Assembly (NCBI RefSeq): GCF_001648895.1
Contig: NZ_LXUF01000001.1
Span: forward strand, 1,161,726 to 1,225,725
Length of the DNA stretch: 64,000 nucleotides
Reading direction: 5' to 3'
Source: Methylovorus sp. MM2
GTDB lineage: Bacteria > Pseudomonadota > Gammaproteobacteria > Burkholderiales > Methylophilaceae
Part shown: positions 7,159-47,577 of the stretch, in pieces
Layout: every line of letters starts with the position of its first letter
How positions within the stretch are numbered: position 1 is the first letter of the stretch
The notes under the pieces: model-generated
Seen by the model: the letters and a program-made list of their open reading frames with translations, nothing else
What the model was told of the DNA's origin: nothing
Database searches by the model: none
Program-made: the position numbers and the translations under genes

Positions 7159-7243
7159 GGGGATGTGGCGGAATTGGTAGACGCACTGGATTTAGGTTCC
7201 AGCGCCGCAAGGTGTGAGAGTTCGAGTCTCTCCGTCCCCACCA
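7159..7243 (+). tRNA. tRNA-Leu (anticodon UAG)
   Basis: The 85-nt gene folds into a class II tRNA. The acceptor GGGGATG pairs with CGTCCCC (one U-G pair), the anticodon stem CTGGA/TCCAG carries loop TTTAGGT with anticodon TAG, and there is a long variable arm, a GTTCGAGTC T-loop and encoded CCA. It decodes CUN leucine codons. The 3' 60 bases are duplicated at 47518-47577, showing that it is the prophage attachment site. Integration regenerated the complete gene here, so the host keeps a functional tRNA. Confidence 0.97.
7184..7243 (+). repeat. attL (60-bp tRNA-Leu 3' repeat)
   Basis: Bases 7184-7243 are identical to 47518-47577 and run from within the anticodon stem to the CCA end of tRNA-Leu. 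The flanking bases differ on both sides (G against C before; A against T after). Strand exchange happened inside this block, probably in the anticodon or T-arm region as for other tRNA-targeting tyrosine recombinases. Confidence 0.95.
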
Positions 7244-7452: not shown

Positions 7453-9867
7453 ATGAACTTACATGAACGACAATTAGAATTAGAGGCTAACGCAGTTGGC
7501 TTAGGGATTGATAGATATAGAAAGGGATTAGAAGCACAAGGGGAAGCTCAGAAGACACCGGGTATGAAGCTCATAAGGGAAGCTATAGTCCCACTGGCAG
7601 ATGCTATTAAGGCATTCGCTGAAGAAGCTAACTCAGGTCGTCCGGGCAGAGATATAGGTAGGGCTAAGTTCTTGACTCAGTTTCCACCACAGACAGTAGC
7701 GTACCTCACTGCTAAGGTGTGTATCAATGCTGTGAGTGCAAAGGGGCAAGAGAAGCCTGTACAAGGTGCTGCAATGACGATAGCTACCATGCTTGAGGAC
7801 ACTCTTAACTTCGACTTGATTAAAGAGAAAGAACCTAAGGTTTACTCTCGGTTACTCAATAAGATTAAGAATGGTTCAGGCAATGGTCACTATCAGCACG
7901 TCATAATGCGTAATGCTCAGAACAAAGCTAAGATTGATACGATCAAGTGGGGACGTTCAGAGAAGCTAGCATTAGGACTACACCTCATACGTCTTTTGGA
8001 GCAGGTCACAGGGTACATCGTCCTGACTCGTGCTACAGAAGGGCGTAATGACACGCCTATATACATCCTGCCTACACCACACATTCAGGAATGGCTAGAG
8101 AAGTCCCACGCTAAGTGCGAGCTGCTCAATCCAGTCAACATGCCTATGGTTGTGCCTCCTAGAGAATGGCAGCAGCCATACAATGGTGGCTACATGACTC
8201 GTGCCTTAAGCTATCCTTTGGTACGTGCTAGGAATCGTAACTTTATTGAAGAGCTGAAGAACTGGGATATGCCTAAGGTCTACAAGGCTATCAACGCTTT
8301 GCAGAACACTGGATGGAGAATCAATAAGGCTGTTCACTCAGTGATGACTGAGGTATGGGCTAGTGGTGGTATGTTGGGTGGTCTCCCACCAAGGGATGAC
8401 TTACCTCTTCCAGCTCAATCCTATACCGACCCTGAAGCTAACCCTGAGGCACACCGTGAGTGGAAACGTAAGGCCGCTGAAGTGTATAACGCTAATCAGC
8501 AGCTACGTGGTAAGCGTAGGGTCATGGGTCATAAGCTGCGAATCGCTGATGAGTTCTCCCAGTATGACGTTATGTACTTCCCTCATGTAATGGATTGGCG
8601 AGGCCGTGTGTACCCAGTAGCAGCGTATCTTAATCCTCAGTCAGATGATTCAGGTAAGGCACTACTACAGTTCTCTGAAGGTAAAGCCTTAGGTGACAAC
8701 GGAGCATTCTGGTTAGCTGTTCATGGTGCTAACTGCGCTGGTGTTGATAAGGTGAGCTTTGAGGATAGGGTACAGTGGGTTGAAGAACACCACACCGAGA
8801 TCATAGACAGTGCTTTATCACCTCTCGATGGTCAACGCTTTTGGGCTGAACAGGATAGTCCTTACCAATTCCTAGCGTTTTGCTTTGAGTGGTTAGGGTA
8901 CTCACTTCAGGGTTCTAACTATGTATCTCATATCTCAGTGTCTTGGGATGGGTCATGCAATGGTCTTCAGAACTTCTCAGCCATGCTTAAGGATGAAGTA
9001 GGGGGTAAAGCTACCAACCTTATCCCTAGTGATACACCTTCAGACATATATGCTGAGGTTGCAAGGGCAGCTACGCTTATCGTTGAGGGCTTTGCCTTAA
9101 ACAAAGTAGAAGAGGCCGTACACTGGCGCGGAAAGATTACTAGAGGTATTGCTAAACGCCCAACCATGACCTTACCTTATGGTGCAGGTCGATATGGATT
9201 TAGTGACCAGATTATTGCAGAGCTGGACAAACTAAACGAGGGCAAGTCAGAGCCGTACCTTCAAGGTGATGACTTCCGCAATGCTACCTTCCTAGCTGGT
9301 GTCATGGAGGATGCTATTGGTAACGTGGTAGTGAAGGCTAAGGAAGCTATGGATTGGCTGAAGGAAGTAGCCAAGATTGCAGCTAAGGGTGGCCTACCTA
9401 TTCACTGGACTACACCTAGTGGATTCCTTGTCGCTCAAGACTATCGTAAGCAGATTGGGAATCGTGTTGACACTGTTATTTGCGGTGTCCGCACTAAGCT
9501 CATGCTACAGGTGGAGAGTGATGAGCTTGACTCCCGTAAGCAAGCACAAGGTATCGCTCCTAACTTCGTTCACTCATTAGATGCCTCTCACTTGGTACTA
9601 ACGATTGATCGCTGTGTGGATGATGGTATCACCAGCCTAGCAATGATTCATGATTCGTATGGTACCCATGCTGCTGATGCAGAGCGCCTCTCAGTTAACT
9701 TAAGGGAGGCATTCATAGACCAATACTCCGGTGATGTATTAGCTGGATTCATTGAGAACCTCAGGACACAACTACCACCCGAACTTATGGATGAGCTACC
9801 TAAACCGCCGACCTCCGGCACTCTGGACTTAGAAGGCGTAAGAGACAGTAAGTATTTCTTTGCCTAA
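7453..9867 (+). CDS. T7-type single-subunit DNA-directed RNA polymerase (gp1)
   Basis: The 804-aa protein (T7: 883) transcribes phage genes from its own short promoters. All palm and finger motifs are present: SWDGSCNGLQN with the catalytic Asp at 499, RGIAKRPTMTLPYGAGRYGF with Lys568 and Tyr576, and MIHDSYGT with catalytic Asp734. The specificity hairpin corresponds to residues about 667-697, just before QGIAPNFVHSLDASH, and the chain ends in the aromatic FFA foot. The N-terminal domain is shorter than in T7. The ATG at 7453 follows a weak AGGGAA. It is the first gene after attL and is preceded by P1, dyad repeats and a terminator, so its expression looks tightly gated. Confidence 0.97.
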   Translation: MNLHERQLELEANAVGLGIDRYRKGLEAQGEAQKTPGMKLIREAIVPLADAIKAFAEEANSGRPGRDIGRAKFLTQFPPQTVAYLTAKVCINAVSAKGQEKPVQGAAMTIATMLEDTLNFDLIKEKEPKVYSRLLNKIKNGSGNGHYQHVIMRNAQNKAKIDTIKWGRSEKLALGLHLIRLLEQVTGYIVLTRATEGRNDTPIYILPTPHIQEWLEKSHAKCELLNPVNMPMVVPPREWQQPYNGGYMTRALSYPLVRARNRNFIEELKNWDMPKVYKAINALQNTGWRINKAVHSVMTEVWASGGMLGGLPPRDDLPLPAQSYTDPEANPEAHREWKRKAAEVYNANQQLRGKRRVMGHKLRIADEFSQYDVMYFPHVMDWRGRVYPVAAYLNPQSDDSGKALLQFSEGKALGDNGAFWLAVHGANCAGVDKVSFEDRVQWVEEHHTEIIDSALSPLDGQRFWAEQDSPYQFLAFCFEWLGYSLQGSNYVSHISVSWDGSCNGLQNFSAMLKDEVGGKATNLIPSDTPSDIYAEVARAATLIVEGFALNKVEEAVHWRGKITRGIAKRPTMTLPYGAGRYGFSDQIIAELDKLNEGKSEPYLQGDDFRNATFLAGVMEDAIGNVVVKAKEAMDWLKEVAKIAAKGGLPIHWTTPSGFLVAQDYRKQIGNRVDTVICGVRTKLMLQVESDELDSRKQAQGIAPNFVHSLDASHLVLTIDRCVDDGITSLAMIHDSYGTHAADAERLSVNLREAFIDQYSGDVLAGFIENLRTQLPPELMDELPKPPTSGTLDLEGVRDSKYFFA

Positions 9868-9922
9868 ATGTATTCCCTAAGTAATTAAATTCCCTTGAAT
9901 AACAAGGACTTTTCAGCAGGAG

Positions 9923-12358: not shown

Positions 12359-12835
12359 ATGAATCCAACAACAAAGCAGGTGTTCGACGTAGGTAGCATT
12401 GTGGTAGCACTTGGAGGTGCTAACTATGGCAGCTACAAAGAAGGTGAAATGGGTGTAGTAACTGATATCGACCATCGTCCTTATCCTAAAATCCAATTCA
12501 AGACTTGGCATGGCTGGCCTATGGTTGGCAACGTTCGTCTTGCCACTCCAGAAGAAGTTGTCTTATTCCTAGAAGCCAAACTTAAAGATGCTCAAGCATG
12601 GGTAGCTAAAGCTAAGTGTATTCAACCTGAAGAGATTTTTGCAGGTGCTATCTTTAATTTCTACGGTGAAGATAGAGTGATCGTAGGTAGCTTAGGTAAG
12701 GGCTATCTAAGTTTGTGCCGCTCATCTTGCAATTTTGGCGGTGGTACAGTCTTTAAAAGCGCAGAAGAAATGGCAGATTACGCTAATTCGGCGGGGTATG
12801 AGCGCTCTGACAAAACACTTAAGGACTTCCTATGA
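12359..12835 (+). CDS. Hypothetical phage protein (158 aa)
   Basis: Not recognised. The first half (VGSIVVALGGANYGSYKEGE through YPKIQFKTWHGWP) has an SH3-like/KOW-like beta pattern. A helical linker rich in Lys and Ala follows, and the second half has another beta-rich part (FNFYGEDRVIVGSLGKGYLS) with two cysteines. The stop overlaps the next ATG (ATGA). Being between lysozyme and primase-helicase it should be expressed with replication genes. Confidence 0.6.
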   Translation: MNPTTKQVFDVGSIVVALGGANYGSYKEGEMGVVTDIDHRPYPKIQFKTWHGWPMVGNVRLATPEEVVLFLEAKLKDAQAWVAKAKCIQPEEIFAGAIFNFYGEDRVIVGSLGKGYLSLCRSSCNFGGGTVFKSAEEMADYANSAGYERSDKTLKDFL

Positions 12836-16071: not shown

Positions 16072-16113
16072 AAGCCTCATGCCGGAACAACTCTGGTGTG
16101 GGGCTTTCTTTTT
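16072..16113 (+). terminator. Terminator-like hairpin before DNA polymerase
   Basis: AAGCCTCATGCCGG (16072-16085) folds back onto CTGGTGTGGGGCTT (16093-16106) with several G-U pairs, followed by TTTCTTTTT-type sequence to 16113. It ends just before the AAAGGA ribosome site of the polymerase gene, so it could tune polymerase expression. Confidence 0.55.
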
Positions 16114-16130: not shown

Positions 16131-18080
16131 CTGGAAGTCCTACTGTTCGATACCGAAACCAACGGATACCTAGAACAAAGCACTGAACTACATTGCTTGG
16201 TAATCAAGAATGTAAATACAAAGGAGACAGTAAGGTACAACGATCAGCCGGGAGGTATTCCACTAGCGGTCGGCCTTAAGCGTTTAGAAGACGCTGAGAT
16301 AATCATAGCCCATAACGCTATTGAGTTTGATGTACCTGTACTCCGTAAGCTGTACCCCAATATTAAGATAGACGACAAACGTGTCCTAGATACGTTAGTC
16401 ATGGCTCGACTAATCTACCCTGACACCTATGACAAAGACCAGAAGCTAGTCCTAGCAGGTAAGTTAGATAAAGCCCTAGTTAAACGACACTCATTGAAAG
16501 CATGGGGTCAACGACTAGGCGAACACAAGGCTGACTATGACGGTGGTTTCGAGAGTTGGAACCTTCCGATGGAAGACTATTGTGAGCAAGACGTTCACAC
16601 CTTAGGTGTCCTATATCTACACCTCCTGACGAAACAATGCAGCCCTAGCGCCTTACGCCTTGAACATGATGTTAGATGGATTATCACTCGACAAGAGAAG
16701 TTCGGTTTCCCATTCAATGTAGTTAAAGCAGCGGCACTATACGTCAAGCTATCCAAACGAAAGATAGAACTTGAAGGCGCATGTAAGGAAGTCTTTAAGC
16801 CTTTCTATGTGCGTGACGGTAAGACCTCTGAAGGTAAGGGCAGTCGCCGCACCCAAGTAGAAGAGCTAGGTCTTGACTATAAGCGTCCTCTTTACGAAGG
16901 CAAGGGTAAAGAGAAGAAGCAAGTAGGGTACTACTACAAGACTATGGACTACACCGATGGTGTCCCATATACCAAAGTTAAGCTCTTAGAATTTAATCCG
17001 GGATCCCGTGACCACATTGCTAACCGTCTGACTAAGTTATTCGGGTGGCAACCTAAAGAGTTCACCAATAGTGGGAAGCCTGAGATCAACGAAACTGTAC
17101 TTGAAAGTCTCGTATATCCCCAAGCCAAAGTCCTACAGGAATACTTCTTAGTCGATAAGCGAATCTCTCAGTTAGCTGAGGGTAATCAAGCGTGGCTGAA
17201 GAAAGAGAAGGACGGAAGGCTGTACTGCCGCCTTAACACCATGGGCGCTGTCACTTCCCGAATGACACACTCCGAGCCGAACCTTGCTCAAGTACCTGCT
17301 GTTAAGAAGAACAAGAATGGTGAAGTCCTTTGGGGTGATGAAGGTTTGTATGGCGCTGATTGCCGCGAACTCTTTGAAGCTCCTAAAGGAATGGTCATGG
17401 TTGGGGCTGATGCCTCAGGCCTAGAGCTTCGAGCCTTAGCAGGATACATGGCTAAGTGGGATGGTGGTAAGTACATCATCACTGTATGCGAAGGGCGCAA
17501 TGAAGACGGTACTGATATTCATACCGTTAACCAGAAAGCCTTAGGCATTGACAGTCGTGATACCGCTAAGACATTCATCTATGCGTTCCTCTATGGAGCT
17601 GGTGACGAAAAGATAGGTGTCACCTTATACAACTCCAAGGGTACCAAAGCTAGGCGGCAGGGTAGGGAAGCGAAGGATAACTTCACTAACCGTATTCCAG
17701 CTATCGGCAAACTCATTCAGGCTGTTCAGAAAGCAGCTAAGAAGAAGGGCTGGATTAAAGGTCTCGATGAGAGAGCTATACCTATCCGCTCTGCTCACGC
17801 TGCACTCAACACTCTCCTGCAATCCGCAGGGGCAATCATTATGAAGCGAGCCTTAGTAATACTCGATGACTCACTGAAGGTCTGGTGGGTACCGGGTGTT
17901 GACTATGAGTTCATGGCAAACATCCATGATGAATGGCAGATAGCTTGTATTCCTGAGATCGCTGATGAAGTTGGTCGCCTAGCTGTTCAAGCCATTAAAG
18001 AATCAGGTGAGTTCTATGACTTCAAGTGTCCCCTTACAGGTGAATACAAAGTCGGTACCAACTGGAAAGAAACTCACTAA
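16131..18080 (+). CDS. DNA polymerase, T7 gp5-like (family A)
   Basis: The protein (649 aa from the proposed start; T7: 704) has an N-terminal 3'-5' exonuclease (LLFDTETNG, LDTLVMARL, YCEQDV). The polymerase domain has motif A GADASGLELRALAGYM, motif B RDTAKTFIYAFLYGAGDEKI and motif C IHDEWQ. It replicates phage DNA with the host thioredoxin as probable processivity factor. Homology requires a start just before EVLLFDTE. The only candidate with a ribosome site is a CTG at 16131, nine bases after AAAGGA. A GTG at 16098 lies inside the terminator hairpin and is less likely. The stop overlaps the next ATG. Confidence 0.95.
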   Translation: MEVLLFDTETNGYLEQSTELHCLVIKNVNTKETVRYNDQPGGIPLAVGLKRLEDAEIIIAHNAIEFDVPVLRKLYPNIKIDDKRVLDTLVMARLIYPDTYDKDQKLVLAGKLDKALVKRHSLKAWGQRLGEHKADYDGGFESWNLPMEDYCEQDVHTLGVLYLHLLTKQCSPSALRLEHDVRWIITRQEKFGFPFNVVKAAALYVKLSKRKIELEGACKEVFKPFYVRDGKTSEGKGSRRTQVEELGLDYKRPLYEGKGKEKKQVGYYYKTMDYTDGVPYTKVKLLEFNPGSRDHIANRLTKLFGWQPKEFTNSGKPEINETVLESLVYPQAKVLQEYFLVDKRISQLAEGNQAWLKKEKDGRLYCRLNTMGAVTSRMTHSEPNLAQVPAVKKNKNGEVLWGDEGLYGADCRELFEAPKGMVMVGADASGLELRALAGYMAKWDGGKYIITVCEGRNEDGTDIHTVNQKALGIDSRDTAKTFIYAFLYGAGDEKIGVTLYNSKGTKARRQGREAKDNFTNRIPAIGKLIQAVQKAAKKKGWIKGLDERAIPIRSAHAALNTLLQSAGAIIMKRALVILDDSLKVWWVPGVDYEFMANIHDEWQIACIPEIADEVGRLAVQAIKESGEFYDFKCPLTGEYKVGTNWKETH

Positions 18081-19357: not shown

Positions 19358-19608
19358 AGGATATTTTAGGTAACGAACTTAAAGCGGGGGATACCTTCGC
19401 TTACTCCTTACCCCTCTACAACACAGCCATTGTGGTACGTGTCTACAAGCTACTGGAGATCACTGATACAGGTCGATTGAAAGCCGAGTGTATTCACACG
19501 CCATTGAACAGTGACAGAGCCTTAGGGTTTATCACTTCATTCCATGCCGACCAAGCAAAACTTAAAGCAGTGAAGCTATGGTTAACCTTTGAAGGAGACA
19601 AGAAGTGA
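19351..19608 (+). CDS. Hypothetical phage protein (85 aa)
   Basis: TTG start overlapping the previous stop; its TGA overlaps the next GTG. The sequence is beta-rich (GDTFAYSLPLYNTAIVVRVY) with a short helical end (ADQAKLKAVKLWLTFEG). Function unknown. Confidence 0.6.
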   Translation: MVEDILGNELKAGDTFAYSLPLYNTAIVVRVYKLLEITDTGRLKAECIHTPLNSDRALGFITSFHADQAKLKAVKLWLTFEGDKK

Positions 19609-19862: not shown

Positions 19863-20018
19863 ATGCAGTACATCATCATTGATAAAAACGGGAATCCTCT
19901 TACAACTGATAAGGGCGGTTCACGAGTAATAACCTACAGAGAATACAGAGACGCAGTAGCGGTCTGTAAAGATTTACCCAAAGGCTACGCTGTAGGAATC
20001 CTCAAGGAGAAAGCATAA
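19863..20018 (+). CDS. Small hypothetical phage protein (51 aa)
   Basis: It starts at ATG 19863 after AGGAAGTAA. The protein begins MQYIIIDKNGNPLTTD and contains YREYRDAVAVCKDLPKGYAV. Its last codons hold the ribosome site of the exonuclease gene, and its stop (TAA, 20016-20018) overlaps the exonuclease AUA start as ATAA. No family was recognised. Confidence 0.65.
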   Translation: MQYIIIDKNGNPLTTDKGGSRVITYREYRDAVAVCKDLPKGYAVGILKEKA

Positions 20019-20869
20019 CCACAACACTCTTAATTGATGCGGACATTCTAGCTTATAGAACCGCCTCAGCTAATGAGAAAAGATATGATTGGGGTGAGGG
20101 CGTAACCTCTCACATAGTCAACGATGACTTTGAAGCTATCAAGAAAGACATTCAATCTGAACTTGATGATCTACTTCTAAGGACTGAAGCTGACGACTTT
20201 CTAATCTGCCTATCTGACGACAATTACAACTGGCGTAAGAAGGTTCTCCCTAGCTACAAACAACACCGTAAGAACTCCATACGTCCTGAGCTTCTGTACC
20301 CACTCAAGGATTACCTATTCGAGAACTACCCTAGCTACCGTAAGGAAACACTAGAGGCAGATGACGTTATGGGTATCTTGAGTACGCACCCTAAGTTGAT
20401 CGCTGGAAAAAAGATCATCGTATCTGAAGACAAGGATATGAAGACGATTCCCGGATGGCTATTCAACCCAAAGAAAGACAAGAAGCCACGCCTCATTACT
20501 CCTGAAGCTGCGGATAGATTCCACATGTACCAAACCATCACAGGTGATACCACAGATGGGTACAAAGGGTGTCCTGATGTTGGCGATAAGGGGGCTATTG
20601 AAATGCTCGATAGTCCGTTCCTAATGGTTCCTTATGAATACGAGTTCCAAAGAGGAAAGCGCAAAGGAACTACTGAAGTTCGCTATGAGCAAGCACCAGC
20701 GCCTAGCCTATGGGAAGGCATAGTGTCTCTCTACGAATGGAAGGGACTTACTGAATATGACGCAATCACTCAAGCCCGTGTTGCAAGAATCCTGCGACAT
20801 ACCGACTACGATTTTAAAACAAAGGAAGTTATTTATTGGAACCCCGTAAAGCCACAGACAACGAAGTAG
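20015..20869 (+). CDS. 5'-3' exonuclease (T7 gp6-like), AUA start
   Basis: From the proposed start the protein is 284 aa (T7: 300). It contains LLIDADILAYRTA, NYNWRKKVLPSYKQHRK, LEADDVMGIL, VSEDKDMKTIP and GDTTDGYKGCPDVGDKGA, the FEN/5' nuclease acidic clusters. It removes primers and digests host DNA. There is no ATG, GTG or TTG from the upstream in-frame stop (19967) until ATG 20369, which would delete the first 118 residues. An AUA at 20015, five bases after AAGGAG and overlapping the previous stop, is by far the best start. The gene before is therefore translationally coupled. Confidence 0.9.
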   Translation: MTTTLLIDADILAYRTASANEKRYDWGEGVTSHIVNDDFEAIKKDIQSELDDLLLRTEADDFLICLSDDNYNWRKKVLPSYKQHRKNSIRPELLYPLKDYLFENYPSYRKETLEADDVMGILSTHPKLIAGKKIIVSEDKDMKTIPGWLFNPKKDKKPRLITPEAADRFHMYQTITGDTTDGYKGCPDVGDKGAIEMLDSPFLMVPYEYEFQRGKRKGTTEVRYEQAPAPSLWEGIVSLYEWKGLTEYDAITQARVARILRHTDYDFKTKEVIYWNPVKPQTTK

Positions 20870-21258
20870 CTCAACATACAGCTTATCGTGGTCTTGAGGA
20901 TGCATACGACACAAACAGTTTGAGTATTCCTGAACTAGCTGAACGTATGACATTCAAAGCTGTAAGCGCTATTCCTAACGGTGTATCCCTTGAAGAATAT
21001 GTCTCCAAGTTAACACCTGAGCCTACACCTAAAGCAGCACCCTCAGCTCTTGACGTACAAGTATCAGGCACTCACTACAAGAACCTAAAGATTCAACCTG
21101 TGGAATACATCCACGCAAACAACATCCCCTTTGCTGAAGGCAGTGTCATCAAGTATGTGTCTCGCTGGCGCAACAAGAATGGGATTAAAGACTTGGAGAA
21201 AGCTAAACACTTCCTTGAGTTGTTGATTGAGTTGGAACGGCAGAACGGTACTGAGTAG
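20836..21258 (+). CDS. DUF3310 family protein (T7 gp1.7 C-domain-like)
   Basis: The 140-aa product carries a DUF3310 domain in its second half: VSGTHYKNLKIQPVEYIHAN, then VIKYVSRWRNKNGIKDLEKA and KHFLELLIELE. T7 gp1.7, a nucleotide kinase, contains the same domain. The N-terminal 65 residues are variable. The TTG start at 20836 lies inside the exonuclease 3' end behind AAAGGA. The stop abuts the GTG of the next gene. Confidence 0.85.
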   Translation: MEPRKATDNEVAQHTAYRGLEDAYDTNSLSIPELAERMTFKAVSAIPNGVSLEEYVSKLTPEPTPKAAPSALDVQVSGTHYKNLKIQPVEYIHANNIPFAEGSVIKYVSRWRNKNGIKDLEKAKHFLELLIELERQNGTE

Positions 21259-25605: not shown

Positions 25606-25681
25606 TCCCTAGTAGCTCAGATGGTAGAGCGTCCGACTGTTAATCGGAAGGTCGTTGGTTCGAGTCCAACCTTCGGAGCCA
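25606..25681 (+). tRNA. Phage-encoded tRNA-Asn (anticodon GUU)
   Basis: The 76-nt sequence folds as a cloverleaf with D stem GCTC/GAGC, anticodon stem TCCGA/TCGGA around loop CTGTTAA (anticodon GTT), T stem GTTGG/CCAAC and encoded CCA. The acceptor stem TCCCTAG/CTTCGGA has two adjacent mismatches (C4-C69 and U5-U68), unusual for a working tRNA. It sits between scaffold and capsid genes, nine bases after the scaffold stop, and would be part of the late transcript. Confidence 0.85.
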
Positions 25682-29379: not shown

Positions 29380-32003
29380 TGTCATTGATAAGTAGAATCA
29401 TCCCTAACTTATTCAATGGCGTATCACAACAACCAGCAACACTTCGCACTACCTCTCAGGCCGAGCTGGTGGAGAATGCTTATCCCTCTATAGCCGTTGG
29501 CCTAGGGAAGCGACCACCTACAGAACATGTAGCTAAAATCTCCGATGCGGTACTGAGTAATGCCTTTGTCACTACACTTAATCGTGATGCAACTGAGCGC
29601 TATTCCTTGGTGATTACCGATGGTGTTATCAAAGTGTTTGACCTGTTTACAGGTACCGAGAAGACGATTAATCCTTCTTTTAGTATGGACTACCTCACTG
29701 GCATCAATGCTGCTGAAGACGTGTCTGTAGTGACTGTGGCTGATTACAGCTTCGTCATTAACAAGAAGAAGACCGTTAAGATGACTCAGGAGCTTTTCGG
29801 TAAGACATACGCAGGACAGACAATAACTTCCCTGACTAAGTATCCTTCAGTAACCCTTGATAACTTCGACTTTGAAGGTTCACAGGTGTTTTCAGTAACG
29901 TGGGAGTACATTGCAGGGACGAACGGTAACATTCAATTCCTAGCACCACTTAATGCGCCGGGCTTTGGGGTAGGTTCTAAAGTACGTTTAACGGCTGCTG
30001 GTACTGTTTATGATTCGAGGGTTAATACCTTATTGAATCGTGACTTCATCGTTACCTACATGCTTGATGATGCCTCAGGGTTAAGTGCCAAGATTGTTAA
30101 AGTGGTTTCACCTACCTTCTTTGGTAATGGGTCACAAACCTCAATCTCTATGGCTAACTTCTCGACACTGGCTACATATAGTGCGAAGGTAGTAACTAGC
30201 GCGGTTCACGGACTTACCGCTAGCAGCTTTGTACGTATCGAAGCTGCCACTCCAGAAGGATACAATGCGTCATCCGTAGTCTCTGCAATTCCGACAACCA
30301 CATCCTTTGAGTATAACGCAGCAGTGCATGGCGCTTTAGACGTAGGCTCTGGCTCGATGCGGTATGTCGTGATTCAAGGATTTAAAGGCTCCAAGCAGAA
30401 GTTCTCCGACCTACCTACTTCAGGTCAAATTGAAGGGGACATGTGGAAGATCGCCGGAGACCCTTCACAGCAACGCTCAAGGTACTACGTTATGTGGGAC
30501 TCTATTAACACGGTGTGGGTTGAATGCGCTGACCCAACTGTGAGTGTAGCCTTTGACCCTACTACCATGCCTCATAAGCTGGTACGGGAAGCGGACGGTA
30601 CCTTTACCTTCACTGAAGTAGAGTGGGACAAGAGGTTAGTAGGGGATAATAAATCAATCCCTATCCCTTCCTTCGTTGATCGCACAATATCCGATACAGT
30701 CTTCTATCGTAATCGCTTAGGGTTCCTCTCAGATGAATCCTTAATCCTGTCACGCTCTGGGACTTACTTCAACTTTTGGGGTGAGACTGCTACAGCCGTG
30801 CTGGATTCTGACCCGATTGATATTACTGCTGCACACACTAAGGTCTCAATCCTAAATTGGGCAGTGGGCTTTAATAAGGCTCTCCTGCTGTATTCAGATT
30901 TAACACAGTTCCAGTTAGCTTCAGGTGATGTACTAACGCCTAAGACTGCAAAGCTAGAAACGGTGTCTGAGTTTGAGTCTTCAAATAAGGCTAGGCCTGT
31001 CCCTGCTGGTCAAAATGTATTCTTTACATTAGACAAGGGTACCTTCTCAATCATGCGGGAATACTATGTAGACGTGGATTCCTATACTAATGACGCTGCT
31101 GATGTAACGGCACACGTTCCTAAGTATCTCCCCGGAGGCATCTACAAGTTAGCCGCTAGTTCCAGTGAGGACATTCTGTTAGCTCTTTCCATGAAGGAGC
31201 GCAATGTAATCTATGTCTATAAATACTACTGGGGTGCAACTGAGAAGCTGCAATCAGCGTGGGTAAAGTGGACGTTCCCTGAAGGGGATACTATCCTGAA
31301 TCTTGACCTGATTACTTCCACACTAAGTCTGACTATTCAGCGCAGTGATGGGGTGTATCTGGAAAAGGTAAATCTCCAACAAGGGGAGACAGTAGAAGCT
31401 GTAGGTCATCCAGTATATTTAGATCGCCGTGTAGAGCTTACAGGGACGTTTAACGCATCAACTAAACGTACCACATGGGCGCTTCCATACAGTGAGCCTG
31501 AAGCTCTTTCTGTAGTGTTAGCAGAGGGCTTTGATAATGCTGGTGCCTTGATTCCTTCAACACAACCTACCGCCACTACCGTAGAAGCCAATGGCGACCA
31601 CACCTCAGGGAAAGTCTTGATCGGTAGGCCTTACACGAAACGCTATAGATTCTCAGAGCAATACCTTAAAGATTCCAATAATGCTGCTGTCCTAATGGGA
31701 CGCTTGCAGATGCGAAGCATGAAGGTTAGCTACAGCAACTCAGGATACTTCCGAGCGGAGGTAACACCTAAGGCTCGTGAGAAGAATACCTATAGCTGGA
31801 CAGGTAAGCGTATCGGCAACGTAGGCTTTATCTTAGGCCAAACCAATATTGAAGACGGCGAGTTTACATTCCCCATTAAAGCTAGATCATCGGAAGTCAC
31901 GATTGATTTAGTCAATGACTCGCACCTACCTTCTTTCTTTAACTCAGCAGAATGGGCTGCAACATTTACTTCTAATACATCAAGGAGAACAGCATCTATG
32001 TAA
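29379..32003 (+). CDS. Tail tubular protein B (nozzle), T7 gp12-like
   Basis: At 874 aa (T7: 794) this is the largest tail component. The N-terminus LFNGVSQQPATLRTTSQAEL with VENAYPSIAVGLGKRPPTEH is diagnostic for the family. The middle contains RNRLGFLSDESLILSRSGTY and FNFWGETA. It builds the hexameric nozzle and, in T7, carries fibre attachment. It starts in a TAATG overlap. Its 3' end overlaps the proposed start of the next gene by ten bases. Confidence 0.95.
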   Translation: MSLISRIIPNLFNGVSQQPATLRTTSQAELVENAYPSIAVGLGKRPPTEHVAKISDAVLSNAFVTTLNRDATERYSLVITDGVIKVFDLFTGTEKTINPSFSMDYLTGINAAEDVSVVTVADYSFVINKKKTVKMTQELFGKTYAGQTITSLTKYPSVTLDNFDFEGSQVFSVTWEYIAGTNGNIQFLAPLNAPGFGVGSKVRLTAAGTVYDSRVNTLLNRDFIVTYMLDDASGLSAKIVKVVSPTFFGNGSQTSISMANFSTLATYSAKVVTSAVHGLTASSFVRIEAATPEGYNASSVVSAIPTTTSFEYNAAVHGALDVGSGSMRYVVIQGFKGSKQKFSDLPTSGQIEGDMWKIAGDPSQQRSRYYVMWDSINTVWVECADPTVSVAFDPTTMPHKLVREADGTFTFTEVEWDKRLVGDNKSIPIPSFVDRTISDTVFYRNRLGFLSDESLILSRSGTYFNFWGETATAVLDSDPIDITAAHTKVSILNWAVGFNKALLLYSDLTQFQLASGDVLTPKTAKLETVSEFESSNKARPVPAGQNVFFTLDKGTFSIMREYYVDVDSYTNDAADVTAHVPKYLPGGIYKLAASSSEDILLALSMKERNVIYVYKYYWGATEKLQSAWVKWTFPEGDTILNLDLITSTLSLTIQRSDGVYLEKVNLQQGETVEAVGHPVYLDRRVELTGTFNASTKRTTWALPYSEPEALSVVLAEGFDNAGALIPSTQPTATTVEANGDHTSGKVLIGRPYTKRYRFSEQYLKDSNNAAVLMGRLQMRSMKVSYSNSGYFRAEVTPKAREKNTYSWTGKRIGNVGFILGQTNIEDGEFTFPIKARSSEVTIDLVNDSHLPSFFNSAEWAATFTSNTSRRTASM

Positions 32004-32452
32004 TCCGTGCCGCTGAGGTTTCTGATAGTGAAGCCTTAGCTAAAACTATGAGGCCTATTGATAGGCTTGAAGTCTCAGTGGAATGGGGCGATAGAGTCCT
32101 TGAAGGAGTACGTAAGGCAATACTACGCTCGACATTGTGTTGGGCTGTAGAGAACGAGAGGGGGGAGCTACTTACAGTGTTTGGGGTAGCCCCTCTCCCT
32201 CAAGACGGTGTGGGTAGTCCTTGGCTCCTAGCTACTACGCACTTTAAGGGTTACAGCAAGGAACTCCTTAGGAACTCCCGTAGGTATATCAACCTCATGA
32301 ATCGGGCGTATCCCTTCCTTTATAACCGCGCACATCCAGACAACAAGGCTACCTTACGGTGGCTCCAATGGTGCGGCTTTGAACTTGAACCACAAATGGT
32401 TCCTGTAGGTATAAGCCAGACACTATTCCAACCCTTCACTAGGAAATTTTAA
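31994..32452 (+). CDS. gp13-like virion assembly protein with GNAT-like fold, AUC start
   Basis: The region from ATG 32048 encodes 134 aa ending ATLRWLQWCGFELE, the C-terminal pattern of T7 gp13 and GNAT-like folds. In-frame codons upstream read YVIRAAEVSDSEALAKT, exactly the usual opening of such a domain. An AUC at 31994 stands six bases after AAGGAG (31982-31987), while the ATG at 32048 has no ribosome site and would cut off the first strand and helix. I therefore place the start at AUC, giving 152 aa. In T7 the protein is needed for core assembly. The stop overlaps the gp14-like ATG. Confidence 0.75.
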   Translation: MYVIRAAEVSDSEALAKTMRPIDRLEVSVEWGDRVLEGVRKAILRSTLCWAVENERGELLTVFGVAPLPQDGVGSPWLLATTHFKGYSKELLRNSRRYINLMNRAYPFLYNRAHPDNKATLRWLQWCGFELEPQMVPVGISQTLFQPFTRKF

Positions 32453-40233: not shown

Positions 40234-40284
40234 CTAAGGATGCCCTATACAAAGATATAGGCTCACCTTAAATAATCACTCCTA

Positions 40285-40317
40285 GACCCCTTTGCGCGAA
40301 GCACTGGGGTCTTTTTT
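40285..40317 (+). terminator. Rho-independent terminator between terminase genes
   Basis: GACCCC (40285-40290) pairs with GGGGTC (40306-40311), with an imperfect GCGC-containing loop between, followed by six T (40312-40317). It lies 19 bases before the proposed large-subunit start, so terminase large-subunit expression must come from read-through. Confidence 0.85.
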
Positions 40318-40335
40318 CGTTGTAAAGGATTAGAA

Positions 40336-42006
40336 ATAGCAATCATAGAAGACATTGACCCCGTTAAAGCGGACTTTAGAAACTTCTTGTACCTCGTTTG
40401 GAAACACTTAAACCTTCCTGACCCAACACCAATTCAATATGACATTGCACATTATCTCCAACACGCACCTAAGCGCTGTGTTATTGAGGCTTTCCGAGGT
40501 GTTGGCAAATCTTGGATTACTTCAGCCTTCGTATGCTGGCTCTTGCTCCGTGACCCACAGACTAAAATACTTGTGGTGTCAGCTTCAAAGGGGCGTTCGG
40601 ATGACTTCAGTTCATTCACTAAGCGTCTTATCGCTGATATGCCTGAGCTACAGCACCTTATCCCTAAGGACGGACAGCGTGACTCAATGGTCGCCTTCGA
40701 TGTGGCACCAGCTCTTAACTCTCACGCACCTTCAGTTAAATCCTTAGGTATCACAGGGCAGCTTACAGGGTCACGAGCTGACGTAATCATTGCCGATGAC
40801 ATTGAAGTAGCCAATAACTCCTTAACTCAGATGCTCCGCGATAAGCTGAGTCAGTCTATTAAAGAGTTTGATGCCTTACTTACGACTAAACCTGAAGCTC
40901 GAATCATCTATCTAGGTACGCCTCAGACTGAAATGTCGGTCTATAACTCACTCCCTGAGCGTGGCTATGAGGTACGTATCTGGACAGCTAGGTTCCCAAA
41001 TCCTAGCCAGATTGAAAAGTACATGGGAAGGGTAGCACCTTACATTACTGACGCTTTAGATAGAGACCCTGCACTAGCAGGTAAGACTTCAGACCCTAAG
41101 CGATTCACTGACATTGACTTAATGGAACGTGAGGCCTCTTACGGTCGTTCCGGCTTTGCCCTTCAGTTCATGATGGACACCAGCTTAAGTGATGCTGATA
41201 GGTATCCTCTGAAGTTAATCGACCTATTAATCTTTGACATTGATCGTGACGTAGCCCCAGTTAAACTTACATGGGCTGGCTCTCCTGAGTACACCATTCC
41301 GACACTTCCAAGTGTTGGCTTCATTGGCGACCGATACCAGCGCCCAATGTTTAGCTCCAAGGAGTTTACTGACTTCCAAGGTTCGGTAATGTCTATCGAC
41401 CCTTCAGGCCGGGGAGCCGATGAGACAGGGTATGCAGTAGTGAAGATGCTTAACGGTATGCTGTATTGTCCTGTAGCTAGTGGCTTCAAAGGGGGATATG
41501 ACGATGAAACACTCAAGTCCCTTGCACTCGTAGCTAAGAACCAGAAGGTTAACCTCATCATCATTGAGTCTAACTTCGGTGATGGTATGTTCACTAAGCT
41601 ATTCACACCTTGGTTAGCTAAAGTGGGCTATACGTGTACGACCATAGAAGAACGTTCGGTAGGGCAGAAGGAGAGGCGTATCATTGATACTCTGGAGCCT
41701 GTATTGAATCAGCATAGGCTGGTGGTTAGTGAGAACGTAGCCAAGGAAGACCTTAAGACTGAAGACCCTAGGTATCAGCTTATGTTTCAGCTCACACGTA
41801 TCACTAAGGACAGAGGCTCTCTTGTCAAAGATGACAGACTCGATGCTCTAGCTATCGCTGTGAAGTATTGGGTCGAGCAGATGGATAAGGATACCTCCAC
41901 CAGCTTAGATGAGTACAAGACTCGAATGCTTGAAGAAGAGCTTGAGAGATTCGCAGACACCGTGTTCGGTCATTCAGATCATTCCCTCACATGGGCTAAT
42001 GCTTAA
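40336..42006 (+). CDS. Terminase large subunit, T7 gp19-like, AUA start
   Basis: The protein (556 aa from the proposed start) has the packaging ATPase with Walker A FRGVGKSWITSAF, Walker B VIIADDIEV and coupling motif IYLGTPQTE. The RNase H-fold nuclease has SIDPSGRGADETGYAV, IIESNFGDGMF and DDRLDALAIAV. Homology to gp19 extends upstream of the first TTG (40387) through DFRNFLYLVWKHLNL. From the upstream stop to that TTG there is no ATG, GTG or TTG. AUA at 40336, six bases after AAAGGA (40324-40329), is the best start; TTG 40387 would lose about 17 conserved residues. Confidence 0.93.
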   Translation: MAIIEDIDPVKADFRNFLYLVWKHLNLPDPTPIQYDIAHYLQHAPKRCVIEAFRGVGKSWITSAFVCWLLLRDPQTKILVVSASKGRSDDFSSFTKRLIADMPELQHLIPKDGQRDSMVAFDVAPALNSHAPSVKSLGITGQLTGSRADVIIADDIEVANNSLTQMLRDKLSQSIKEFDALLTTKPEARIIYLGTPQTEMSVYNSLPERGYEVRIWTARFPNPSQIEKYMGRVAPYITDALDRDPALAGKTSDPKRFTDIDLMEREASYGRSGFALQFMMDTSLSDADRYPLKLIDLLIFDIDRDVAPVKLTWAGSPEYTIPTLPSVGFIGDRYQRPMFSSKEFTDFQGSVMSIDPSGRGADETGYAVVKMLNGMLYCPVASGFKGGYDDETLKSLALVAKNQKVNLIIIESNFGDGMFTKLFTPWLAKVGYTCTTIEERSVGQKERRIIDTLEPVLNQHRLVVSENVAKEDLKTEDPRYQLMFQLTRITKDRGSLVKDDRLDALAIAVKYWVEQMDKDTSTSLDEYKTRMLEEELERFADTVFGHSDHSLTWANA

Positions 42007-43870: not shown

Positions 43871-43890
43871 GCCTAAATGTATTCCCTAAG
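43871..43890 (+). repeat. 20-bp exact repeat shared with 9862-9881
   Basis: GCCTAAATGTATTCCCTAAG occurs identically here and at 9862-9881, each directly behind a gene end. Related sequence is at 43043-43064 and, inverted, at 43151-43167. It may be a regulatory or recombination motif. Confidence 0.5.
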
Positions 43891-46371: not shown

Positions 46372-47379
46372 ATGTTAGTTTTGAGAGAAGGTTTTTGGTA
46401 CATAGACCTAACTCACCCAGTAACAAGTAAGCGGGTTCGGAAGTCCACCAAGACGACCGATAAGAAACAGGCCGAAGCTCTACACGCTAAGATTCAAAAC
46501 GATATGTTTATGAGTCAGTGGGAAGGGGATAAGCCTAAAGAGTGTGAACTGACGCTACAGGAGGCTTACGATAAGGCCGTTAAACAACGCTGGAGCAGGA
46601 GCGGTACCCCTGACACAGTGCAGTATAACTTCAACCGACTTGTAAGGTTTCTGGATAGAGCTACGTTGATAAGGGATGTCACCAGCCCTTTGATATGGGA
46701 AGTAATCGGAGAGTTAAGGGATGACAGTTACCCTGATTCCACGATCAATCGAAGTCTAGCCGTACTCAGTACAATCCTAAAGATGGCAAGGGATGATTGG
46801 GAAGTGTTAGGCAAGATACCCAAGGTTCCTAAACTAGACGAAGGTTCGGGAAGGCTCAGGTGGCTCCAAGAAGGGGAAGAAGAGGTAATCACTGATTGGT
46901 TCAGAGCTAAAGGTGACAACGATATGGGCGACCTAATCGAAGTACTGTTAGATACTGGGTGCAGAGTTAGTGAAGTGTTAGAGCTTCGGAACAATGATGT
47001 TCTACTCGATGACCGTATGCTGGTGCTAAGAAAGACCAAGAAAGGGTCATGGGATACACAGCCTTTAACAAATCGTGCATTGCAGATATTCGCAAGACGC
47101 ACTAAAATGTTTGACTTGCCCTTCGGAGGACTAACAAGACACGCAGCAATCCATAGGTTTCACACTATGAAGAAACACTGCGGGTTTGAAAGCGACAAGG
47201 AACTAATCCTACACACGATGAGACACACTACAGCGTCCCGTCTAGTGATGAAGGGTACAGACCTCAAGCGAGTCCAAGAGTTTATGCGTCACGCGGACAT
47301 TAACACTACGTTAAGATATGCGAAACTCTCTACCAAAGAGAAGCTGAAAACAGCCGAAGTATTAGAAATAGTAGTGTGA
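46372..47379 (+). CDS. int: Tyrosine recombinase, phage integrase
   Basis: The 335-aa protein has an N-terminal arm-binding domain (WYIDLTHPVTSKRVRKSTKT), a SAM-like core-binding domain (about 60-155) and the catalytic domain. Arg198 (DTGCRVSEVLELR), Lys near 221-224, His281 and Arg284 (HTMRHT), His307 and nucleophile Tyr316 (TTLRYA) complete the active site. It catalyses integration at the tRNA-Leu 3' end and, with an accessory factor, excision. AGGAGG precedes the ATG. It is 138 bases from attR. No excisionase gene was recognised. Confidence 0.96.
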   Translation: MLVLREGFWYIDLTHPVTSKRVRKSTKTTDKKQAEALHAKIQNDMFMSQWEGDKPKECELTLQEAYDKAVKQRWSRSGTPDTVQYNFNRLVRFLDRATLIRDVTSPLIWEVIGELRDDSYPDSTINRSLAVLSTILKMARDDWEVLGKIPKVPKLDEGSGRLRWLQEGEEEVITDWFRAKGDNDMGDLIEVLLDTGCRVSEVLELRNNDVLLDDRMLVLRKTKKGSWDTQPLTNRALQIFARRTKMFDLPFGGLTRHAAIHRFHTMKKHCGFESDKELILHTMRHTTASRLVMKGTDLKRVQEFMRHADINTTLRYAKLSTKEKLKTAEVLEIVV

Positions 47380-47517: not shown

Positions 47518-47577
47518 CACTGGATTTAGGTTCCAGCGCCGCAAGGTGTGAGAGTTCGAGTCTCTCCGTCCCCACCA
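47518..47577 (+). repeat. attR (60-bp tRNA-Leu 3' fragment)
   Basis: Perfect copy of 7184-7243, lacking the 5' 25 bases of the tRNA, so it is a non-functional tRNA remnant. Host sequence resumes after it, 44 bases before the tig ATG. Confidence 0.95.

Follow-up and report, generated by a model that had tools for sequence, protein, structure and literature searches.

Putative near-cognate translation starts in a temperate T7-like prophage of Methylovorus, including an AUA start for its exonuclease

We put forward evidence that near-cognate translation initiation is probably real in a temperate phage integrated in the genome of Methylovorus sp. MM2, where a T7-type exonuclease would be made from an AUA codon at position 20015, one of at least three such starts in the same phage. 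AUA starts are already known for a few host genes, and what appears to be new, judging from sequence, is the presence of several near-cognate starts in one temperate phage. Standard gene finders take only ATG, GTG or TTG as start codons, and this restriction truncates genes with near-cognate starts; in the present prophage, standard annotation would shorten the exonuclease, the terminase and a virion protein at their N-termini. If real, these starts would be a means of controlling phage genes and more than an oddity of infC, and would provide a testable tie between phage induction and a host initiation fidelity factor. Among the papers listed by searches of an open-access library, none dealt with AUA starts in phages, judged by title or abstract opening.

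The prophage and its exonuclease start site

The window, that is, the whole 64,000-nt stretch of DNA analyzed here, is part of contig 1 of a 2.4-Mb genome. It contains a T7-like prophage of ~40 kb, with the following attachment and integration features:

7159-7243, + strand: tRNA-Leu (ARAGORN)
7184..7243, + strand: left attachment repeat, the 3′ part of tRNA-Leu, in a perfect 60-nt direct repeat with 47518-47577
46372..47379, + strand: tyrosine integrase (PF00589, 2e-18)
47518..47577, + strand: right attachment repeat, a perfect 60-nt match to 7184-7243

The prophage encodes a single-subunit RNA polymerase, a ssDNA-binding protein, an endonuclease, an amidase, a primase-helicase, a DNA polymerase and the exonuclease, and it has genes for the portal, scaffold, capsid, tail, internal virion proteins and terminase, in an order similar to that of the integrase-bearing Autographiviridae RHEph21, LUZ100 and CRP-125. 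With this RNA polymerase, an integrase, attachment repeats, and replication and head-tail genes of T7 type, it qualifies as a temperate phage of the Autographiviridae type, and it appears to be intact. A tRNA-Asn(GTT) gene lies between the scaffold and capsid genes (25606-25681), and LUZ100 and RHEph21 also have an annotated tRNA-Asn between these genes.

The exonuclease start site comprises three elements:

19863..20018, + strand: small upstream gene of 51 codons with an ATG start (sequence; coding score 16)
20004..20009, + strand: Shine-Dalgarno (SD) sequence AAGGAG, with a 5-nt spacer (AAAGC) to ATA 20015
20015..20869, + strand: T7-type 5′-3′ exonuclease of 284 aa, with ATA 20015 as the proposed start (phrog_107, 4.5e-68; PF02739, 5.1e-11)

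The phrog_107 profile covers residues 3-269, most of the protein, which by homology is an intact member of the T7-type 5′-3′ exonuclease family. For the upstream gene, neither Pfam nor PHROG gave a match at 0.001. The exonuclease frame is open from 19970 and its earliest in-frame ATG, GTG or TTG lies at 20369 (codon 119), so the claim of an earlier sequence-only reading that the first 118 codons contain no canonical start is exact. With codon frequencies taken from 14 prophage genes, exonuclease included, the chance of such a run is ~0.4%. A codon-usage model trained with the exonuclease excluded places the onset of coding at 20018, the codon directly 3′ of the ATA. This boundary bears on another account, in which only a C-terminal product of 166 aa is made from ATG 20369, the first canonical start. 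We deem this account highly improbable, because the coding signal extends up to 20018 and the short product would lack N-terminal nuclease residues, with 10 of the 23 columns that are invariant in 76 relatives falling within the first 118 residues.

The proposed start codon occupies 20015-20017, and its surroundings are as the same reading had described them: AAGGAG ends five bases upstream, and the codon overlaps the previous stop, the ATAA at 20015-20018 including the TAA of the 51-codon ORF in a 4-nt overlap. The host 16S 3′ end has CACCTCCTTTC. Overlaps of equal geometry do occur elsewhere in the prophage, as ATGA at 12832 and 18761 and as GTGA at 19605. RNA folding around the exonuclease start revealed nothing special (z 0.67). 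At the other end of the gene, a DUF3310 gene (20836-21258) overlaps the exonuclease end and has a TTG start after AAAGGA.

The overlap is also the place where a -1 frameshift could fuse the exonuclease to the 51-codon gene, since the exonuclease frame is -1 relative to it and has no stop in the 15 codons that precede the ATA; in one relative, Delftia phage IME-DE1, the exonuclease is annotated with an N-terminal extension. Inspection by eye of the end of the upstream gene (CTC AAG GAG AAA GCA TAA), however, reveals no X_XXY_YYZ slippery site, the overlap codons would re-pair poorly one base back, and the 4-nt overlap puts the AUA exactly at the place where relatives start. A fusion would moreover leave the terminase and the gp13-like gene described below unexplained, and we regard it as very improbable.

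Comparison with related exonucleases

Relatives were drawn from the best 80 of at least 597 loci; 77 were left once the record of the window itself and two loci lacking the N-terminus had been dropped, and removing one at a contig edge yielded the set of 76. The exonuclease retains all 36 columns conserved at ≥90% in the 76 relatives, including 12/12 within the first 118 residues. In every one of the 77 relatives from the best 80 of at least 597 loci, a canonical codon is found 5-12 codons before the DxD motif. The starts chosen in 76 of these comprise 49 ATG, 14 TTG and 13 GTG, and the commonest place is -7 (27 of 76), which is the place of the ATA here. Comparison with these relatives agrees with the proposed start in its location; the codon itself is not conserved, the relatives having ATG, GTG or TTG.

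Within the same selection from the best 80 of at least 597 loci, the start overlaps an upstream ORF (≥25 codons) by 4 nt, as NTGA, in 39/76 relatives, 18 of which start with GTG or TTG. Non-ATG starts account for 27/76 exonucleases, versus 6/76 in the DNA polymerase, for which the set of relatives is different. Together, the frequency of non-ATG starts and of NTGA overlaps indicates that the exonuclease gene often has weak, overlapping starts. The gp6-type exonucleases of the temperate Autographiviridae Caulobacter phage S2B, LUZ100, RHEph21 and CRP-125 resemble the one analyzed here in gene order and protein family, and overlap their upstream gene by 4-11 nt (4 nt here), but they start at a canonical ATG or TTG.

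To see whether exonucleases of this family use AUA repeatedly, we scanned for the LLIDxD motif preceded by ATAA, which returned at least 120 loci. A recurrent use was rejected: among the exonuclease-like matches listed, inspected by eye, only the window's own is devoid of a canonical codon upstream of the motif, so the AUA is not conserved. A peptide-pattern scan of genome contigs returned two distant loci. Matches at 1e-20 occur in 1/187 family genomes (the window's own) and in 2/399 order genomes (own included), and the exonuclease in the second order-level match (L247) has an ATG start.

The ATA looks like a one-base step from ATGA that would have preserved the upstream stop. Only one sequence of this phage is available, and the closest relative exonuclease among the best 80 of at least 597 loci is 55% identical; a search for a close relative suited to base-by-base comparison yielded none, the best phage DNA match covering 6% of a 3.5-kb query.

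Further candidate near-cognate starts and controls

When the coding ORFs on the plus strand of the prophage were scanned for SD matches at canonical and near-cognate codons, two further genes without a usable canonical start stood out, the terminase large subunit and a gp13-like gene; the DNA polymerase is a probable additional case. The features involved are:

16072..16106, + strand: terminator-like hairpin (15 pairs) and T run, just 5′ of the polymerase start
16131..18080, + strand: DNA polymerase, probable start CTG 16131 after AAAGGA (relatives' DxE spacing)
31994..32452, + strand: internal virion gene of GNAT type, gp13-like, with ATC 31994 after AAGGAG as the proposed start (homology)
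40284..40312, + strand: terminator-like hairpin and T run, just 5′ of the terminase start (fold of 40265-40345, z-score -3.14)
40336..42006, + strand: terminase large subunit, proposed start ATA 40336 (phrog_38, 2.8e-111)

In the terminase, the first canonical codon is TTG 40387, which lies within the conserved NFLYLVW motif. This motif was found in 72/76 relatives, and 71 of these 72 have a canonical codon 15-31 codons before its tryptophan, the remaining one being interrupted by a contig end. ATA 40336 (-21) has AAAGGA 6 nt upstream, and ATA 40345 (-18) is a possible alternative start. The gp13-like gene, matched by Acetyltransf_3 at 0.00028 (under the Pfam cut-off), has its first canonical codon, ATG 32048, internal to the conserved N-terminus, and seven annotated gp13-like relatives have canonical starts at that N-terminus or up to ~20 residues before it, the place occupied here by ATC 31994. 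For the DNA polymerase, 79 relatives were fetched and 3 without an N-terminus were dropped; in 76/76, a canonical codon precedes the DxE motif by 3-9 codons. Here CTG 16131 occupies -6, and the only canonical codon, GTG 16098, lies at -17, has no SD and sits within the 15-pair hairpin, so that the start is probably CTG 16131, with GTG 16098 as the alternative. The near-cognate codons of the exonuclease, terminase, gp13-like and polymerase genes each have a 6-nt SD match. We also considered a TTGTAAAGGA element that occurs ahead of both the polymerase and the terminase start, and discarded it as not significant, with 2 sites against 2.07 expected by chance.

The AUA start of the exonuclease holds up, on the basis of homology, coding boundary, SD spacing, overlap geometry and retained conserved residues, but its portrayal as a lone rare case does not: the same prophage probably has an AUA terminase, an AUC gp13-like gene and a CUG polymerase, and host infC apparently starts at AUA as well.

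Controls were run with a script that selects ORFs whose coding signal sets in 10 or more codons ahead of the first canonical codon and that contain a near-cognate codon (AUA, AUC, AUU or CUG) preceded by an SD match of ≥6. It was applied to the prophage, to seven related phages and to 400 kb of host DNA, taken as 20 segments of 20 kb each. Such ORFs number 3/53 in the prophage, 0/345 in the related phages and 0/335 in the host; removing the SD condition changes these figures to 4/53, 9/345 and 8/335. The Fisher values of 0.002 for the prophage against each control are descriptive, since the criterion was set after the three cases had been seen. Within genes, a 6-nt SD precedes only 9/541 internal AUH or CUG codons.

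The extent to which these starts are unique to this phage was gauged on 16 records of close relatives, which provided 12 polymerase N-termini and, among 11 records with a terminase, 9 readable terminase N-termini. The terminase of L473 (a record of L048; minus strand) has no canonical start, only a CTG at -31 with a 4-nt SD, and that of L471 has only a TTG at -31, without an SD. The polymerases have a canonical codon within 13 codons of the motif in 10/12 cases; that of L481 has only a GTG at -14, and that of L482 only a GTG at -21, plus an ATC at -8 with a 5-nt SD. Non-canonical-looking starts thus number 1/9 in the terminases and one or two of 12 in the polymerases of close relatives, which suggests either a broader spread of near-cognate starts across the clade or noise in readings of this kind.

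Another possibility is that the prophage is decaying and that the exonuclease has lost its start by mutation and fallen silent. Prophages can degenerate, and a single G-to-A change in ATGA would yield ATAA with the upstream gene unharmed, a change compatible with the canonical starts of the 77 relatives; an RNA-ligase-like ORF (168 aa) spans just positions 1-170 of a 341-position profile, and the best hits of the tail-fibre ORF are N-terminal parts of fibre profiles only. Against this, the RNA polymerase, primase-helicase, polymerase, portal and tail tube match their profiles across nearly the whole ORF, the attachment repeats are still perfect over 60 nt, and the exonuclease has lost none of its 36 conserved columns. 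Three altered start codons would be an odd pattern for neutral decay when the core genes examined showed neither a stop nor a frameshift, and every altered codon is still near-cognate with a good SD. We therefore consider decay improbable. A sequencing or assembly error at 20015, which the single sequence of this phage might invite, is even harder to credit and seems highly unlikely, because the same situation recurs at 31994 and 40336, 12 and 20 kb away, and is absent from the host ORFs of the same assembly (0/335).

Host infC and possible control of phage genes

Near-cognate initiation, our preferred reading, has a parallel in the host. Host infC (L245) presents GGAG, 8 nt and then ATA GCT CAA GAT, with no in-frame upstream ATG, GTG or TTG. 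The gene was detected in 170/187 family genomes, and among 30 loci read from the best-scoring ones, host included (L245, L248-L276), the codon at this place is ATA in 27 and ATC in one, with one ambiguous and one not located by the script, where a motif search indicates ATC; in 5 of the 27 ATA loci, some canonical codon exists elsewhere before the conserved N-terminus. The prevalence of ATA at infC makes it very probable that this lineage normally initiates at AUA. Host infC and the exonuclease share a predicted AUA start after an SD with no upstream in-frame canonical codon; infC differs in being a chromosomal IF3 gene, in its spacer (8 nt versus 5) and in having no ATAA overlap. An unusual initiator tRNA was dismissed, a pattern search having returned one host match to the normal CAU-anticodon initiator pattern. 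The E. coli genes infC and pcnB start at AUU and resemble the present case in their near-cognate codon and low output, differing in the codon and in being host genes.

Staphylococcus aureus infC, ccpN and citZ are reported to have AUA starts; in reporters, those of ccpN and citZ yielded ~10% of AUG in poor medium, and rich medium raised that of ccpN to as much as 30% (PMC13009471). As described there, the AUA of infC and ccpN comes with a predicted extended SD motif, akin to the SD-preceded AUA reported here; these two are host genes mapped by ribosome profiling, whereas ours are phage genes and predicted only (PMC13009471). In E. coli reporters, AUU is quoted at ~0.3% of AUG (PMC10666635), and exonuclease output could accordingly be very low. 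A paper on phage SPP1 reports only AUG, GUG and UUG starts (PMC6316719), and IF3 is reported to increase dissociation of non-canonical initiation complexes (PMC8266586).

Under this reading, the AAGGAG would guide the ribosome to AUA 20015, which the ordinary initiator tRNA would decode as fMet. Ribosomes finishing the overlapping 51-codon gene may also feed this start: translational coupling requires a very close stop and start (PMC10666635), and the 4-nt ATAA overlap provides such proximity for a termination-reinitiation pair. Coupling or throttling of exonuclease synthesis, which the sequence-only reading had proposed, is plausible, the 4-nt overlap being shared by 39/76 relatives from the best 80 of at least 597 loci.

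Initiation at the near-cognate codons of the prophage (exonuclease AUA, terminase AUA, gp13-like AUC and probably DNA polymerase CUG) would operate well below AUG and under the influence of IF3, in the way predicted for host infC with its AUA start. Such starts may keep dangerous viral enzymes low; our guess at their purpose is that leaky transcription of the exonuclease, terminase and polymerase would hurt the lysogen. The hairpins at 16072-16106 and 40284-40312 are a possible second brake on the polymerase and terminase. More tentatively, and with doubts that outweigh our confidence, the AUA/AUA/AUC/CUG set could act as a second, IF3-sensed lock on replication and packaging enzymes, in which normal IF3 nearly silences leaky transcripts in the lysogen and induction, through a drop in free IF3 or a phage factor that acts on initiation, frees all of them together; the same rule would then govern the host's infC. 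T7 reportedly modifies IF3 by means of a phage kinase.

As a separate observation on the prophage, an identical 19-nt GCCTAAATGTATTCCCTAA occurs at 9862-9880 and 43871-43889 (0.01 expected by chance), one copy spanning the point where the RNA polymerase gene ends and the other the start of an ORF at 43877, and is a candidate phage promoter.
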